Part shown: positions 6,386 through 64,000 of the stretch, one piece after another
Layout of the letters: each line of letters opens with the position of its first letter
Numbering within the stretch: position 1 is the stretch's first letter
DNA from: Psychromonas sp. Urea-02u-13
GTDB lineage: Bacteria > Pseudomonadota > Gammaproteobacteria > Enterobacterales > Psychromonadaceae
Reading direction: 5' to 3'
Length of the DNA: 64,000 nucleotides
Assembly (NCBI RefSeq): GCF_002835995.1
Contig: NZ_PJBZ01000053.1
Span: forward strand, 1 to 64,000
Position numbers and translations under genes: made by a program
The notes under the pieces: generated by a model
What the model saw: the letters and a program-made list of their open reading frames with translations, nothing else
Databases searched by the model: none
What the model was told of the DNA's origin: nothing

Positions 6386-6534
6386 CTTGTTAGCTTGAAA
6401 GTTCGTTTTATATTTATGTTCAATTTGTTCCGTATTATGTACCGAATCCTATACATCATAAGTAATAGCAACACTTCTAGCCAAATGCCTTGATTTACAA
6501 GGTTAAATTACTCAAATTAAATAGGATGACTATT

Positions 6535-6744
6535 ATGTCTACAACTACTACTGGTACAGTAAAATGGTTCAACGAATCTAAAGGTTTTGGTTTCATCGAG
6601 CAAGAAAACGGTCCTGACGTTTTCGCACATTTCTCTGCAATCGCAAGCACTGGTTTTAAAACTCTTGCTGAAGGCCAAAAAGTACAGTTTACTGTTACTC
6701 AAGGTCAAAAAGGCCCTCAAGCAGAAAACATCGTAGCTCTTTAA
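6535..6744 (+). CDS. Cold-shock protein, CspA family
   Basis: A 69-residue single cold-shock domain, the normal length. RNP1 is KGFGFIEQ and RNP2 is DVFAHFSAI. The opening [12 protein letters not shown] and the ending [11 protein letters not shown] are family standards. It binds single-stranded RNA and DNA and melts RNA structure. The ATG at 6535 has AGGA nine bases upstream; an in-frame TTG at 6490 would add 15 residues unlike the family, so I rejected it. The exact-consensus promoter and long leader suggest high, possibly cold-controlled expression. Which of the Csp paralogs it is cannot be decided here. Confidence 0.95.
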
Positions 6745-6788
6745 TATTGCTTCGATGGACTTTAATTAGTCCATTCTGATTGAATAGA

Positions 6789-6816
6789 AGGTAATCCTAA
6801 GGGGTTGCCTTTTTTT
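6789..6816 (+). terminator. Rho-independent terminator after the cold-shock gene
   Basis: A nine-pair stem (AGGTAATCC / GGGTTGCCT with G-U pairs), a four-base loop and seven T. A second hairpin, ATGGACT/AGTCCAT at 6755-6774, lies between the stop codon and this stem. Confidence 0.85.
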
Positions 6817-6837
6817 ATGTCTGTAAGAAAATTATTG

Positions 6838-6921
6838 AGCTAACAGCTAACAGCTAACAGCTAACAGCTAACAGCTAACAGCTAACAGCTAACAGCTAAC
6901 AGCTAACAGCTAACAGCTAAC
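6838..6921. repeat. Heptanucleotide tandem repeat, 12 copies of AGCTAAC
   Basis: Twelve identical copies of a 7-base unit in 84 bases. The array ends directly beside the stop codon of the sensor kinase on the minus strand (6923-6925). See the related arrays at 32409, 44572 and 59373. Confidence 0.97.
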
Positions 6922-18991: not shown

Positions 18992-19057
18992 ACAAATTCT
19001 TTCATTTTAGGGTTGAAAACGTGTCATTCTACCCTTAAATAATACCTTTTACTATTC

Positions 19058-19318
19058 ATACCCATGATATTTCAAAATGCAAAGTCAGCAAGGGACGTTT
19101 TTCCAAGATGCTAGGCATAAAATGGAAGTATAATTATTCTACAGCGAGGTTTTATAACAACGCAGATTGGTGAAACGTATCTTGCCCAAAGGGGCACGAG
19201 CTCGAACACTATTTCAGCGTTGCAATAATCGCAAAGGGAATAACCATTACCTCATGTTGCGCCTTGAACTCGCGTCCGAGTTCGTGCCTGACAAAACATT
19301 TTGAATTAACATGGGTAT
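19058..19318. repeat. Family 1 inverted-repeat element, copy A
   Basis: 261 bases between divergent yhbY and rlmE. The ends are inverted repeats: ATACCCATG-A-TA-T-TTCAAAATG on the left and the same with T and A exchanged on the right, 20 of 22 matching. An inner stem pairs GGCACGAGCTCG (19193-19204) with CGAGTTCGTGCC (19277-19288). It shares short blocks with copies at 24477 and 62814, for example TTGCCC, AGCTCGAA, CAGCGTTGCAA and CATGTTGCGCCTTG. No coding frame. Confidence 0.85.
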
Positions 19319-19339
19319 ACAACTATACGAGAAGATTTC

Positions 19340-24476: not shown

Positions 24477-24741
24477 TATACCCGTCATCATTCAAGATGC
24501 CTAATTCAGCAAGCTGTGGGGTAACCAGATTCTAGGCAGAAAGTTGAAGGTCTAACTGGTTCAATCGAGGCTTTCTAACAACGAAGATGTTTGCCTCACA
24601 ACTTGCCCTGCGGGTCGTTAGCTCGAAAACCAATTCAGCGTTGCAACCTTTGATAAGGGCTAGCCATTGTCATCATGTTGCGCCTTGCCTTGGTGTCCGA
24701 GCTAACGACTGAATAAGGCAGATTGATTGATAACGGGTATA
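24477..24741. repeat. Family 1 inverted-repeat element, copy B
   Basis: 265 bases between glmM and secG. Ends: TATACCCGTCATCATTCAA and the inverted form of TATACCCGTTATCAATCAA. The inner stem is a perfect 12-base pairing, GTCGTTAGCTCG (24614-24625) with CGAGCTAACGAC (24698-24709). Copy A differs at both sides of this stem yet still pairs. Confidence 0.9.
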
Positions 24742-31039: not shown

Positions 31040-31971
31040 TGGCAAGACGTGGTAAAGGCCGCAGTATAAACGGTGTAGTGTTACTAGATAAACCGACCGA
31101 TATTAGCTCTAACCATGCATTGCAACGTGTGAAACGCATCTTTTTCGCAAATAAAGCGGGCCATACAGGCGCGCTTGATCCACTTGCAACTGGCATGTTA
31201 CCTATCTGTTTAGGTGAAGCGACTAAATTCTCTCAGTTTTTACTCGATTCAGATAAACGTTACATCGTAACTGCAAAGTTAGGTGTACGAACAGATACCA
31301 GCGATTCACAAGGCGCAGTTGTTTGTGAGAAGCCTGTATCAGTAACACAAGAACAACTTGATGTCGCATTGGATACGTTCCGTGGTGATATTATGCAGGT
31401 CCCTTCAATGTATTCTGCATTGAAATTTGAAGGTAAACCTTTGTATAAATATGCCCGTGAAGGCATTACCATTGACCGTCCTGCTCGCCCAATTACTGTT
31501 TATGAGATCAACCAATTACGCTTTGAAGGTGATGAAATCGATCTTGATATTCACGTGAGTAAAGGTACCTACATTCGTACAATTACGGATGACTTAGGTG
31601 AGTTACTTGGCTGTGGCGCACACGTTTCTATGTTACGTCGTACACAAGTTGCTGATTACCCATATGATAAAATGGTAACGATTGATCAATTAGATGAATT
31701 AATTGAACAAGCAAAAGAGCAAGATATTAGCCCTTATGAATTACTTGATGCCTTGTTACTTAAAATGGACACAGCGGTAAAAGATTACCCGGAAGTCAAT
31801 ATCAGTGATGAAATGGGTGATTACATCTTACATGGCCAGCCTGTACAGGTATTTGGTGCTCCCGATGATACGTTAGTGCGTATTACGGTAGGTGAAGAAC
31901 ATACCTTTATTGGTATGGGTGAGATGAATGATGATGGTTTAATCGCACCGAAGCGCCTCGTCAACCTTTAA
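31039..31971 (+). CDS. truB: tRNA pseudouridine-55 synthase
   Basis: A 310-residue enzyme that makes pseudouridine 55 in the T loop of tRNAs. Catalytic Asp lies in [14 protein letters not shown]; other motifs are [31 protein letters not shown] and SKGTYIRTI. The C-terminal PUA-like part ends with [14 protein letters not shown] overlap with rbfA implies coupling. It closes the operon. Confidence 0.98.
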
Positions 31972-31974
31972 TAA

Positions 31975-32152
31975 TTCAGGTCGTTGCCCTTTGGGTAAAT
32001 ATCTTCGTTGAAAGTGCTCACAAATTTATCTGGAATAAATTTGAACATCCGTAGGATGGCCCGTAGGGCGGAGCACAGGACGTGCGTAGTATTGGGTAAA
32101 CCAAGCTCCGCGCTTTCGCCTTGATCTTTAACCCAAATGGCTTAGCCCTGAA
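31975..32152. repeat. Family 2 inverted-repeat element, copy A, with cloverleaf-like insert
   Basis: 178 bases after truB. Ends are inverted repeats: TTCAGG-TCGTT-GCC-C-TTTGGGT against TTCAGG-GCTAA-GCC-A-TTTGGGT. Inside, 32014-32076 forms a closed structure: GTGCTC/GAGCAC around three hairpins, CAAATTTAT/ATAAATTTG, CATCC/GGATG and GCCC/GGGC, the last two with GTA loops. Related copies lie at 55100 and 63943. Confidence 0.85.
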
Positions 32153-37249: not shown

Positions 37250-37365
37250 ATACCATTCCGCTTAATTAAATGGTCTAAAATTGCGTAGGAAAAATTGATG
37301 AAAATAACGACGTTATCATCGGTTTTAACCAGCAAGGTAGATCAGATAGTTAAGCGGATGGGTAT
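37250..37365. repeat. Family 3 inverted-repeat element, complete copy
   Basis: 116 bases between rpsO and the antiporter gene. The left end ATACCATTCCGCTTAATTA and the inverted right end ATACCCATCCGCTTAACTA match over most positions. The right half, from ACGTTATCATCG to the end, recurs almost base for base at 53252-53319. Confidence 0.82.
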
Positions 37366-44530: not shown

Positions 44531-44555
44531 AAGGAAGCTTCGGCTTCCTTTTTTT
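44531..44555 (+). terminator. Terminator of pnp
   Basis: AAGGAAGC, UUCG-type tetraloop TTCG, GCTTCCTT, then T5: a very stable classical terminator. Confidence 0.95.
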
Positions 44556-44571
44556 ATGCCTGAAGAAAAAT

Positions 44572-44690
44572 AGTTGTCAGTTATCGGCTATCGGCTATCA
44601 GTTATCGGCTATCAGTTATCGGCTATCAGCTATCGGCTATCGGCTATCAGCTATCGGCTATCAGCTATCAGCTATCGGCTATCGGCTATC
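44572..44690. repeat. Heptanucleotide tandem repeat, 17 units of the type RGYTATC
   Basis: Seventeen 7-base units: AGTTGTC, then a mixture of AGTTATC, GGCTATC and AGCTATC, with a degenerate last unit AGCTACT at 44691. It follows the pnp terminator by 16 bases. A 66-codon frame across it (44574-44774) is only the translation of the repeat. The rest of the gap to 45050 is AT-rich and shows no site that I can support. Confidence 0.97.
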
Positions 44691-45050
44691 AGCTACTCCA
44701 TTCCATTTTCACTATTATATTCAGCCCTGTATCTCACCTCCGCTATCTCCTTTTTCCATAAATTGAACGTTTAAATGAGTAAGCATTATCAAAACAACAT
44801 GTTACTAAATGATTAAATTTGAATGCTATTTTAGTTAGTTGTTACTTGTTTGTAGGTAATATGCAATATCAAAAATGTAAATAAAGACTCTTTTTAATCT
44901 TTTTGTGTGCTGGCTTTTATTATTGTTTATTCACTGCAGTGTCGAGTTAGGGCATCTCTCATAAACGGCTTTTAGAGAAAAAATATCCGGTGGTTATTGT
45001 TATGGTGACGACGTTAAAATTCCCCCATTAAAACTGATTAAGGATTTTTT

Positions 45051-47433: not shown

Positions 47434-48201
47434 ATGAGCGAAGCGACGTTATCCATTAAAAACTTACATAAATCCTTTGCTGATAATGAAGTCTTAAAAG
47501 GCATCGATTTAGAGGCACAAAAAGGCGATGTGATCTCAATTTTAGGTTCTTCGGGCTCTGGTAAAAGTACCTTATTGCGTTGTGTTAACTTATTAGAAAC
47601 ACCCACCTCTGGTGAAATACGTGTTAATGGTGAGCTAATCGAGATGAAGCAGGATAAAAAACTCGGTGCCGTGCCTGCTTCTTTCAAACAAGTGGAACGT
47701 ATTCGCAGTCGTTTAGCGATGGTTTTTCAAGGTTTCAATTTATGGTCTCATATGACGGTATTGGAAAACGTGATTGAAGCGCCTGTGCATGTACTCGGTG
47801 TACCTAAAAAAGAAGCCATTGTTAAGGCTGAAGCGATTTTACAGCGTGTCGGATTATATGAACGTAAAAACTATTACCCAGGACAGCTTTCTGGTGGCCA
47901 GCAACAACGTGTTGCGATAGCACGTGCTTTAGCGGTTGAACCTGAAGTGATGTTATTTGATGAACCCACGTCAGCGCTAGATCCTGAGTTAGTTGGCGAA
48001 GTATTAAATGTAATGCGTGGTCTTGCAGAAGAGGGCAGAACGATGCTAGTTGTGACCCACGAGATGGCTTTCGCGCGTGATGTGTCTAATAAAGTAGTAT
48101 TTTTACACCAAGGTTTAGTAGAGGAACAGGGAAAACCAGACGTTATCTTTGAAAATCCATCATCGGAACGTTTCAAACAGTTTATATCATCGGTTTATTA
48201 A
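47434..48201 (+). CDS. Basic amino acid ABC transporter ATP-binding protein (HisP/ArtP/AotP-like)
   Basis: A 255-residue ATPase. Walker A GSSGSGKST, signature LSGGQQQR, Walker B VMLFDEPTSALDPE, switch His VVTHEM. The HisP-type insert (ELIEMKQDKKLGAVPASFKQ) between Walker A and the Q loop is characteristic of the histidine/arginine/ornithine importers. It heads a four-gene set with a binding protein and two permeases; a 244-base repeat-containing gap follows it. Confidence 0.94.
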   Translation: MSEATLSIKNLHKSFADNEVLKGIDLEAQKGDVISILGSSGSGKSTLLRCVNLLETPTSGEIRVNGELIEMKQDKKLGAVPASFKQVERIRSRLAMVFQGFNLWSHMTVLENVIEAPVHVLGVPKKEAIVKAEAILQRVGLYERKNYYPGQLSGGQQQRVAIARALAVEPEVMLFDEPTSALDPELVGEVLNVMRGLAEEGRTMLVVTHEMAFARDVSNKVVFLHQGLVEEQGKPDVIFENPSSERFKQFISSVY

Positions 48202-48206
48202 GGTTC

Positions 48207-48409
48207 GGCTTCAAAATTACTTGAACTTTTGTTTTCAAAATAACCCGTTATTTAGGATTGGCTTCAAAATTACTTGATCTTTTGTTTTTAAAATAGCCCG
48301 TCATTTCAGGCTTTTTAAAACAATTTAGAGCAAGTTATTTTGTAACGATTCCTTAGGGTTTTTTAAAAACAATTTAGAGAAAATTATTTTGTAACGATTC
48401 CTAACCGTA
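48207..48409. repeat. Two tandem duplications upstream of the binding-protein gene
   Basis: Unit A, 53 bases, occurs at 48207-48259 and 48260-48312 with about seven differences. Unit B, about 49 bases, occurs at 48312-48360 and 48361-48409. A contains CAAAATTACTTG; B contains CAAGTTATTTTG, which can pair with it at 11 of 12 bases, so A and B copies may fold together in the message. Confidence 0.85.
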
Positions 48410-53251: not shown

Positions 53252-53319
53252 ATTGAAACAACAACGTTATCATCGATTTTAACCAGCAAGGTAGATCAGA
53301 TAGTTAAGCGGATTGGTAT
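53252..53319. repeat. Family 3 element, truncated copy
   Basis: 68 bases nearly identical to the right half of the 37250-37365 element, including ACGTTATCATCG, TTTTAACCAGCAAGGTAGAT and the terminal AGCGGATTGGTAT. The left end is not recognisable. It ends 30 bases from tdk. Confidence 0.8.
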
Positions 53320-62775: not shown

Positions 62776-62813
62776 AATAACCTTGCTAAAAAAGTGTATA
62801 GATGAATGGAAGT

Positions 62814-63207
62814 ATACCCGTTATCACTCAAGGTGCAAAATTCAGCAAGTGGAGAGGTGAACAGGTTCTAGGCTGGAAGTTGAAGGTCTAACTGGTTCAA
62901 TCAAAACTTTCTAACAAATCATTAAATGCTTGCATTTGGTTGATGTCGCTAGAGGATTGACGAAGTCAATCGCTCGAAAGACAACGAATATGTTTGCCTC
63001 TCCGCTTGCCCTTCGGGTCGCTAGCTCGAAAGCTAATTCTGCGTAGCAATATTCGATAATAACCCGCCATTAAAGGATGAAAGTATTCTTTTTCATTCTA
63101 CCGATAGAGAATTAACGCAGTTAATTTCTCGAAAGATCATCATGTTGCGCTTTGCTTCCGCATCCGAGCTAACGACTGAATGAAGGACTTTGATTGATGA
63201 CGGGTAT
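62814..63207. repeat. Family 1 inverted-repeat element, copy C, with two nested inserts
   Basis: About 394 bases between nadK and grpE. Ends: TATACCCGTTATCACTCAA and, inverted, CATACCCGTCATCAATCAA. It keeps the common blocks and inner stem (GTCGCTAGCTCG 63017-63028, CGAGCTAACGAC 63165-63176, one mismatch). Two inserts, about 62919-62980 and 63062-63137, each end in a hairpin and CTCGAAAGA: GATTGAC/GTCAATC in the first and GAATTAAC/GTTAATTTC in the second. Confidence 0.88.
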
Positions 63208-63313
63208 GTAACTTGTTTAAATGATTTTATTAACAGACTTGAAACTATTATTCGAATCCCCATAATACCCCTATAAAGTATTCAATTTATAGCTAGCTAG
63301 TTAGGAATAAAAA

Positions 63314-63928
63314 ATGAGCGAAGAACAAAAAGTAAGTGTTGAAGAAGCAATTGAAACGGTTTTAGCTGAAGAAGCGAACGCAACTGCACCAGAAGCTGTT
63401 GAAGCTGAATTACTTGAGCCAGAAGTAGTTGAAGAAGAATCAACTAAAGAAGTCAACATGATTGAAGAGCTAGGCAAAAAACTTGCACTTGCTGAAGAAG
63501 ACGTGATTGTACAAAAAGATTTAGTAGTACGTGCAAAAGCACATGCTCAAAACGAAATCCGTAAAGCGGGTCTTGACGCAGAAAGTAAAGTAAAACGTAC
63601 ATTAAAGCGTTTCACTGAAGCACTATTGCCAGTTGCTGATTCTTTAGAGATGGCAGTTAGCCATATTGATAAAGAAAATGAAGCATTAGCTAAAATGGCT
63701 GAAGGTGTTGAGTTAACACTTAAATCAATGATCGATTCTTTTGCAAAAGTAGGCATTGTGCAAATGAACCCGGTTGGCGAGCAAGCGAATCCAGAAAGAC
63801 ACCAGATTGTTAGCCAACAAAAAATCGAAGGCAAAGCAGCTAACGAAGTGATCGTTGTGATGCAAAAAGGTTACGAATATAACGGTCAAGTTATTCGTCC
63901 GGCTATGGTTATGGTTGGCGCTGCTTAA
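63314..63928 (+). CDS. grpE: Nucleotide exchange factor GrpE
   Basis: A 204-residue co-chaperone that releases ADP from DnaK. A Glu/Ala/Val-rich acidic N-terminus (about 1-50) and long coiled coil (about 50-110) lead to the beta-wing domain, with KRFTEALLPVADSLEMAVSH, PVGEQANPERHQIVS and QKGYEYNGQVIRPAMVMV. Start ATG has TAGGAATAAA upstream, AGGA fitting. dnaK would be expected nearby. Confidence 0.97.
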   Translation: MSEEQKVSVEEAIETVLAEEANATAPEAVEAELLEPEVVEEESTKEVNMIEELGKKLALAEEDVIVQKDLVVRAKAHAQNEIRKAGLDAESKVKRTLKRFTEALLPVADSLEMAVSHIDKENEALAKMAEGVELTLKSMIDSFAKVGIVQMNPVGEQANPERHQIVSQQKIEGKAANEVIVVMQKGYEYNGQVIRPAMVMVGAA

Positions 63929-63947
63929 TCTTTCACAACTCAGCCCG

Positions 63948-64000
63948 TCGTCATTTAGGCAAGCTTCATCGTTGAAAGTGCTCACAAATTTTTCTGGAAT
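63948..64000. repeat. Family 2 element, copy C (cut by window end)
   Basis: Starts CAGCCCGTCGTCATTTAGGC and continues CATCGTTGAAAGTGCTCACA, then AATTTTTCTGGAAT, matching 32003-32035 including the first half of the cloverleaf-like insert. Its far end lies outside the window. Confidence 0.8.

Follow-up and report, generated by a model that had tools for sequence, protein, structure and literature searches.

What kind of element keeps its two sides matched while its sequence changes from copy to copy? The question is raised by three related stretches in the window analysed here, the whole of a 64,000-nucleotide piece of DNA from Psychromonas sp. Urea-02u-13. The original prediction had described copies at 19058, 24477 and 62814 with common end repeats and an inner stem but differing sequences, the two sides of each copy agreeing with one another, and direct reading bore this out. 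ATACCCATG was found at both ends of copy A and ATACCCGT at both ends of copies B and C, while the inner stem consisted of GGCACGAGCTCG/CGAGTTCGTGCC with one G.T wobble in A, of GTCGTTAGCTCG/CGAGCTAACGAC in perfect pairing in B, and of GTCGCTAGCTCG/CGAGCTAACGAC with one mismatch in C. The coordinates first given for copy A (19058-19318) did enclose an element, but were one base too wide on each side (Table 1).

Structure of the three copies

The same architecture was predicted for all three copies, namely a terminal stem that surrounds a 5' and a 3' hairpin, and folding was far better than that of dinucleotide shuffles (z scores of -6.2, -7.4 and -8.0 for A, B and C, respectively). In the 5' hairpin of copy A, alignment and fold showed the right arm paired to a left arm found in no other copy. 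Copy C is longer than A and B because of two inserted hairpin blocks. The identities of the neighbouring genes (rlmE, ftsH, grpE, nadK, glmM and secG) were confirmed by NCBIfam.

Table 1. Positions of the three copies, their hairpin arms and their flanking target-site duplicates in the window
Feature	Position	Strand	Length	Sequence or type	Context or basis
Element A	19059-19317	+	259 bp	TACCCATG...CATGGGTA, A-type	between a putative short minus-strand gene and rlmE; end 22 bp before the rlmE start codon
A left target-site duplicate	19057-19058			CA, mutated from TA	empty site in relative L152
A right target-site duplicate	19318-19319			TA	
A 5' hairpin, left arm	19088-19106	+		GCAAGGGACGTTTTTCCAA	fold and alignment
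A 5' hairpin, right arm	19167-19185	+		TTGGTGAAACGTATCTTGC	fold and alignment
A 3' hairpin, left arm	19193-19204	+		GGCACGAGCTCG	read directly, and fold
A 3' hairpin, right arm	19277-19288	+		CGAGTTCGTGCC	read directly, and fold
Element B	24479-24739	+	261 bp	TACCCGTC...TAACGGGTA, B-type	start at most 5 bases past the glmM stop codon; secG next
B left target-site duplicate	24477-24478			TA	
B right target-site duplicate	24740-24741			TA	
B 3' hairpin, left arm	24614-24625	+		GTCGTTAGCTCG	read directly, and fold
B 3' hairpin, right arm	24698-24709	+		CGAGCTAACGAC	read directly, and fold
Element C	62815-63206	+	392 bp	B-type ends and two extra hairpin blocks	between nadK (-) and grpE (+)
C left target-site duplicate	62813-62814			TA	relatives L174/L175
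C right target-site duplicate	63207-63208			TG, mutated	
C first inserted hairpin block	62918-62980 (approximate bounds)	+			distal part of 5' hairpin; match gap and fold
C second inserted hairpin block	63072-63136	+			loop of 3' hairpin

Other repeats were present in the window. A second repeat of 64 bp, unrelated to these elements, occurred at 37302-37365 and 53256-53319 (94% identical), and two 74-bp stretches (31963-32036 and 63927-64000) were 78% alike. Tandem arrays of 7-base units (AACAGCT; TCGGCTA/TCAGCTA) were located at 6836-6919, close behind a match to the cspA thermoregulator (6484-6816), and at 44549-44709, and a neighbouring pair of direct tandem duplications, 53 and 49 bp in length, at 48195-48300 and 48312-48409, respectively.

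Family size, types and distribution

At least 59 copies were read from end to end in this Psychromonas genome, and 157 in all; a pattern for the terminal repeats gave 98 matches in the genome, against 0 for the reversed control. The element has the form TACCC...GGGTA (typically 259-264 bp), with terminal inverted repeats of about 23 bp, TA duplicated at the flanks and no transposase gene. Two main types were distinguished, TACCCATG (A) and TACCCGT (B). Rarer ends (TACCCAAG, TACCCACT, TACCGATG, TACTCG and TAGCCG) were usually matched by the other end of the same copy. Some copies are extended to up to 418 bp by extra hairpin blocks, and in these long copies, C among them, the extra hairpins lie at two fixed places within the hairpins. 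The second block of C matched this genome over more than 40 bp at seven other places, every one inside such elements, and in part, over 27-30 bp, at three places elsewhere; as all of the longer matches lay inside elements, independent mobility of the blocks was rejected. One 65-bp copy (L144; G000:C283:12777-12843) comprised little besides the two terminal repeats.

Out of 148 copies, 138 lay outside open reading frames (no overlap with an open frame of at least 100 codons), and their intergenic settings were tandem (61), divergent (25) or convergent (17). Matches to the conserved pattern were obtained in P. arctica, P. aquimarina, P. ossibalaenae, P. antarctica, P. hadalis and one Photobacterium. 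A wider search of the order produced a match in 33 of 395 genomes (6 of 115 genera), and a search of a plasmid collection one partial match only, in Photobacterium. Such repeats are not described in the portion of the P. ingrahamii genome paper considered here.

Empty sites and target-site duplication

The original prediction had pointed to related strains as the place to look for empty sites, and clean ones were found at two of the three loci. At the rlmE site, relative L152 carries CTATT-TA-TAACTATACG (CTATTTATAACTATACG) where this genome has CTATTCA[element]TACAACTATACG, and at the nadK-grpE site relatives L174 and L175 carry AAG-TA-TAACTTG (AAGTATAACTTG) where this genome has AAGTA[element]TGTAACTTG. 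The glmM site was too diverged in relatives for an exact empty site to be defined. A profile search of the loci of relatives scored the element at 0 of 21 rlmE, 0 of 14 grpE and 0 of 22 glmM loci. Given these profile-negative relatives and the clean empty sites, the copies are therefore insertions. A lone sequence resembling an A-type end (TTGAAGTGACATGGGTATA) was seen about 60 bp upstream of grpE in relative L179, with no profile score; it is possibly a decayed separate insertion at another position.

Among 50 copies with intact ends, TA was present at the left flank in 40 and at the right flank in 37; a target duplication longer than TA was looked for in copies with intact ends, and none was detected. 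In one nested case (L095), an A-type element had inserted at a TA within a B-type element. The family is mobile, as seen from the empty sites, the TA duplication and the nested copy.

IS630 elements with matching ends

IS630-family transposases were present in 19 of 24 Psychromonas genomes. Three full-length IS630 elements of sister species (L294, L295 and L302; 1114-1120 bp) have the same terminal repeat as the short element. The ends of L295 (TATACCCGTCATCATTCAAGATG) read CCCG at both ends and those of L294 (TATACCCATCATACTTCAAGATG) CCCA at both ends, so that the TACCCG and TACCCA versions occur in IS630 elements as they do in the short repeats; the end of copy B was identical to that of L295 at 23 of 23 bases. 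Intact transposases of 341 aa are encoded by L294 and L295 (NF033545, E value 1e-64 or better), while L302 has one degenerate end and no visible long intact transposase frame, and a further IS630 element, L293, has mismatched ends (CCCG/CCCA). No intact IS630 was found in the assembly of this strain, only truncated IS630 genes at contig ends. One of these has an end (TACCTGACACACTTCAACTTGC) that is related but not identical to that of the short element, and a transposase 73% identical to that of L295 over 158 aa.

Being short and lacking a transposase gene, with terminal inverted repeats, TA duplication, empty sites and, in L294, L295 and L302, potential autonomous partners with matching ends in sister species, the repeats have the features of a family of miniature inverted-repeat transposable elements (MITEs). 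The matching IS630 ends in both versions, taken with the insertions, suggest that an IS630/Tc1-mariner transposase acting in trans is the most likely mover of this family. Origin of the interior as a simple deletion derivative of IS630 was rejected: comparison of the interior with the IS630 elements gave no convincing match, and essentially the ends alone agree.

Paired changes and maintenance of the fold

Paired changes were counted on a tree of 145 distinct copies, with ancestral states assigned by parsimony (event counts are consequently approximate) and 14 slid partner registers as control. Double changes from one Watson-Crick pair to another numbered 130, at 53 of the 84 stem pairs, compared to 3-13 in the slid registers. 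The two sides thus change together far beyond chance, as the original prediction had claimed of the arms, and the pairing is therefore maintained in some way. The fold was likewise retained outside Psychromonas: 18 full-length elements from four other families (f2, f4, f13 and f16; 261-267 bp) share the three-helix architecture, and their majority pair differs from that of Psychromonas on both sides at 5 of 12 pairs in the 3' hairpin and 5 of 23 in the terminal stem. The three-helix fold is conserved while its stem sequences are replaced.

Changes were also separated by branch, the terminal branches including long ones to single representatives and being not purely post-insertion. Terminal branches carried 135 double changes (96 paired), against 44-66 (17-30 paired) with slid partners, and internal branches 65 (53 paired), against 7-15 (2-6 paired). 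Compensated double changes were commoner relative to pair-breaking single changes on internal than on terminal branches (53:175 versus 96:665, p 0.0002). The shortest terminal branches, the youngest tips, held 61 single and 0 double changes, a comparison that is weak alone (p 0.02-0.12). On terminal branches, stem columns changed as fast as other columns (ratio 0.91-1.07). This pattern is in keeping with a propagating lineage that is under constraint and resident copies that drift.

Taken as a whole, the repeats are very probably a MITE without genes of its own, moved by an IS630/Tc1-mariner transposase, of which foldable copies propagate and resident copies drift. The transposase would come in trans from a full-size IS630 element that shares the ends (TACCC...), would recognise both terminal repeats and excise the MITE, and insertion at a TA would duplicate that TA. 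Copies able to fold, with matched ends and interior hairpins, would be those propagated, the relevant form probably being DNA that is extruded or single-stranded while it is replicated or excised. After insertion, copies would drift with no visible constraint.

Arm homogenisation without selection, in which one hairpin arm templates the other during replication (quasi-palindrome correction or template switching), is a possible, if somewhat unlikely, reason for the retention of the fold; it bears on that point only, and the element would remain an IS630-type MITE. Rare variants mirrored at both ends of one copy are what such a process would leave (L022, TACTCG/CGAGTA; L033, TAGCCG/CGGCTA; L030, TACCGATG/CATCGGTA), as are entire inner helices that differ between A-type and B-type yet remain paired. 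An E. coli ERIC copy (L291, 601-727) similarly has the ends TACTCG and AGAGTA, and ERIC ends may also change together. Many one-sided intermediates were seen, however (internal branches carried 175 single changes that break a pair and 95 that restore one), which fits stepwise compensation, and the youngest tips lacked double changes although a process linked to replication should affect residents too. The inner helix also kept, uncorrected, a tandem T.G/G.T wobble (columns 44-45/114-115) in both A-type and B-type copies (16/36 and 62/109, respectively), while neighbouring pairs around it are replaced between copies. Selection for foldability and mechanical copying of arms were not separable with these data; the best reading is that the fold matters for propagation, or that arms are copied from each other in replication, and not that it is kept as a host regulator.

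Comparison with ERIC and other known repeats

ERIC, the enterobacterial repeat, was first described in 1991, and its divergence in the Gammaproteobacteria was reportedly treated by Zo in 2011. Like ERIC (IRU/RU-1; MITEEc1; MITEPlu5), the present family is intergenic, non-coding and of high copy number, with a strong fold and TA duplication. Ends beginning TATACCCGTCAT and continuing to TTCAAG.TGC are shared, and TATACCC..TTCAAG ends with TA flanks were recognised by eye when the E. coli copy was set against the Psychromonas ends. That the element simply is ERIC is nevertheless improbable. The ends (TATACCCGTCAT...TTCAAGTTGCA) and TA flanks are indeed held in common (sequence table of PMC2759123), but ERIC measures 123-127 bp, whereas the elements here are about 260 bp, with three helices and optional hairpin blocks. 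Their terminal stem surrounds two long hairpins, which are separated by a CCC/GGG mini-hairpin. The interior as read in the sequences differs from the ERIC core and is not recognisably ERIC, apart from a 13-nt look-alike (CTTATTTATGTAA versus CTTACTTATGTAA) noted by eye only. The family is built like ERIC at twice the length and is related to it by its ends.

The CCC-type IS630 elements (L294 and L295 here; ISPlu3/8/19 in Photorhabdus) share the terminal repeat, the TA target and the CCCG and CCCA versions, but carry the 341-aa transposase gene, and no homology to them was found in the MITE interior. For MITEPlu5, an ERIC relative in Photorhabdus, a connection to CCC-type IS630 elements and a duplicated TA has been published (PMC6267812). 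Correia/NEMIS and RUP are likewise small, foldable repeats flanked by TA, but reside in other hosts and span about 100-160 bp, and as far as found no three-helix architecture has been reported for them. IS630-Spn1 is the proposed mover of RUP, and transposases matching such repeats had mostly not been found at the time of a 2008 review (PMC2229807).

DNA or RNA, and host regulation

The original prediction had left open whether the fold is maintained as DNA or as RNA. Maintained pairing was upheld, as described above; RNA was not suggested. In RNA helices, selection on one strand should favour G.U, and single changes away from Watson-Crick pairs were balanced between G.T (284) and A.C (266; p 0.47), which is not what selection on a one-strand RNA would leave. 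Taken alone, the 5' hairpin favoured G.T (135:74) and the 3' hairpin A.C (69:122). We tentatively consider, as a rather doubtful extension, that an IS630-type transposition pathway requires of its substrate the complete three-helix DNA fold and not just the terminal repeats; interior hairpins would then co-evolve in an RNA-like manner with DNA as the form under selection, and the 5' and 3' hairpins, given their opposite G.T biases, would act on opposite strands.

A structured RNA or cis-regulatory element kept for the regulation of host genes, such as heat-shock genes, is very unlikely. The predicted fold is very stable (z -6 to -8) and, among the three copies of the window, A and C are upstream of rlmE-ftsH and grpE, respectively, genes that the original prediction had described as heat-shock controlled in E. 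coli. ERIC within mRNAs affects transcript stability in Yersinia (review PMC10969869). A heat-shock link was not supported, since the element was absent by profile from the rlmE, grpE and glmM sites of relatives and copies occur in all intergenic contexts, and heat-shock regulation was rejected on the empty orthologous sites. An overall excess of G.U over A.C was absent, and the terminal-branch rates given above also speak against a regulator. A search of the window at Rfam gathering thresholds returned only cspA, the S15 leader and a tRNA, with none at the element sites, and a known RNA family was rejected accordingly. Outward promoters or terminators supplied by the element were rejected as well, a consensus scan being near chance. 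A general host-regulatory function of the repeats is thus largely refuted. A transcribed copy of the MITE would add a hairpin to an mRNA and may alter expression, selection for which has left no sign here.

Chance, or matching arms inherited from a few founders by recent duplication only, is already refuted: near-identical recent duplicates exist (L004, L005, L007 and L008), but double changes fall on many branches and at far more pairs than the 3-9 of the slid registers, arms within one copy are more alike than arms between copies (0.83 versus 0.72 in the terminal inverted repeats and 0.77 versus 0.57 in the inner helix), and in four other families the fold persists although the stem sequences differ.

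Conclusions

The repeats belong to an ordinary class, the MITEs, of which they are an unusually clear example with a rich structure. They form a longer relative of ERIC whose ends recur, in both versions, on IS630 elements of sister species; clean empty sites are available, and covariation of the interior stems could be quantified across several bacterial families. A covariation test is passed by the element, which yet shows neither an RNA-strand bias overall nor visible constraint on resident copies; covariation alone is therefore no proof of a functional RNA.
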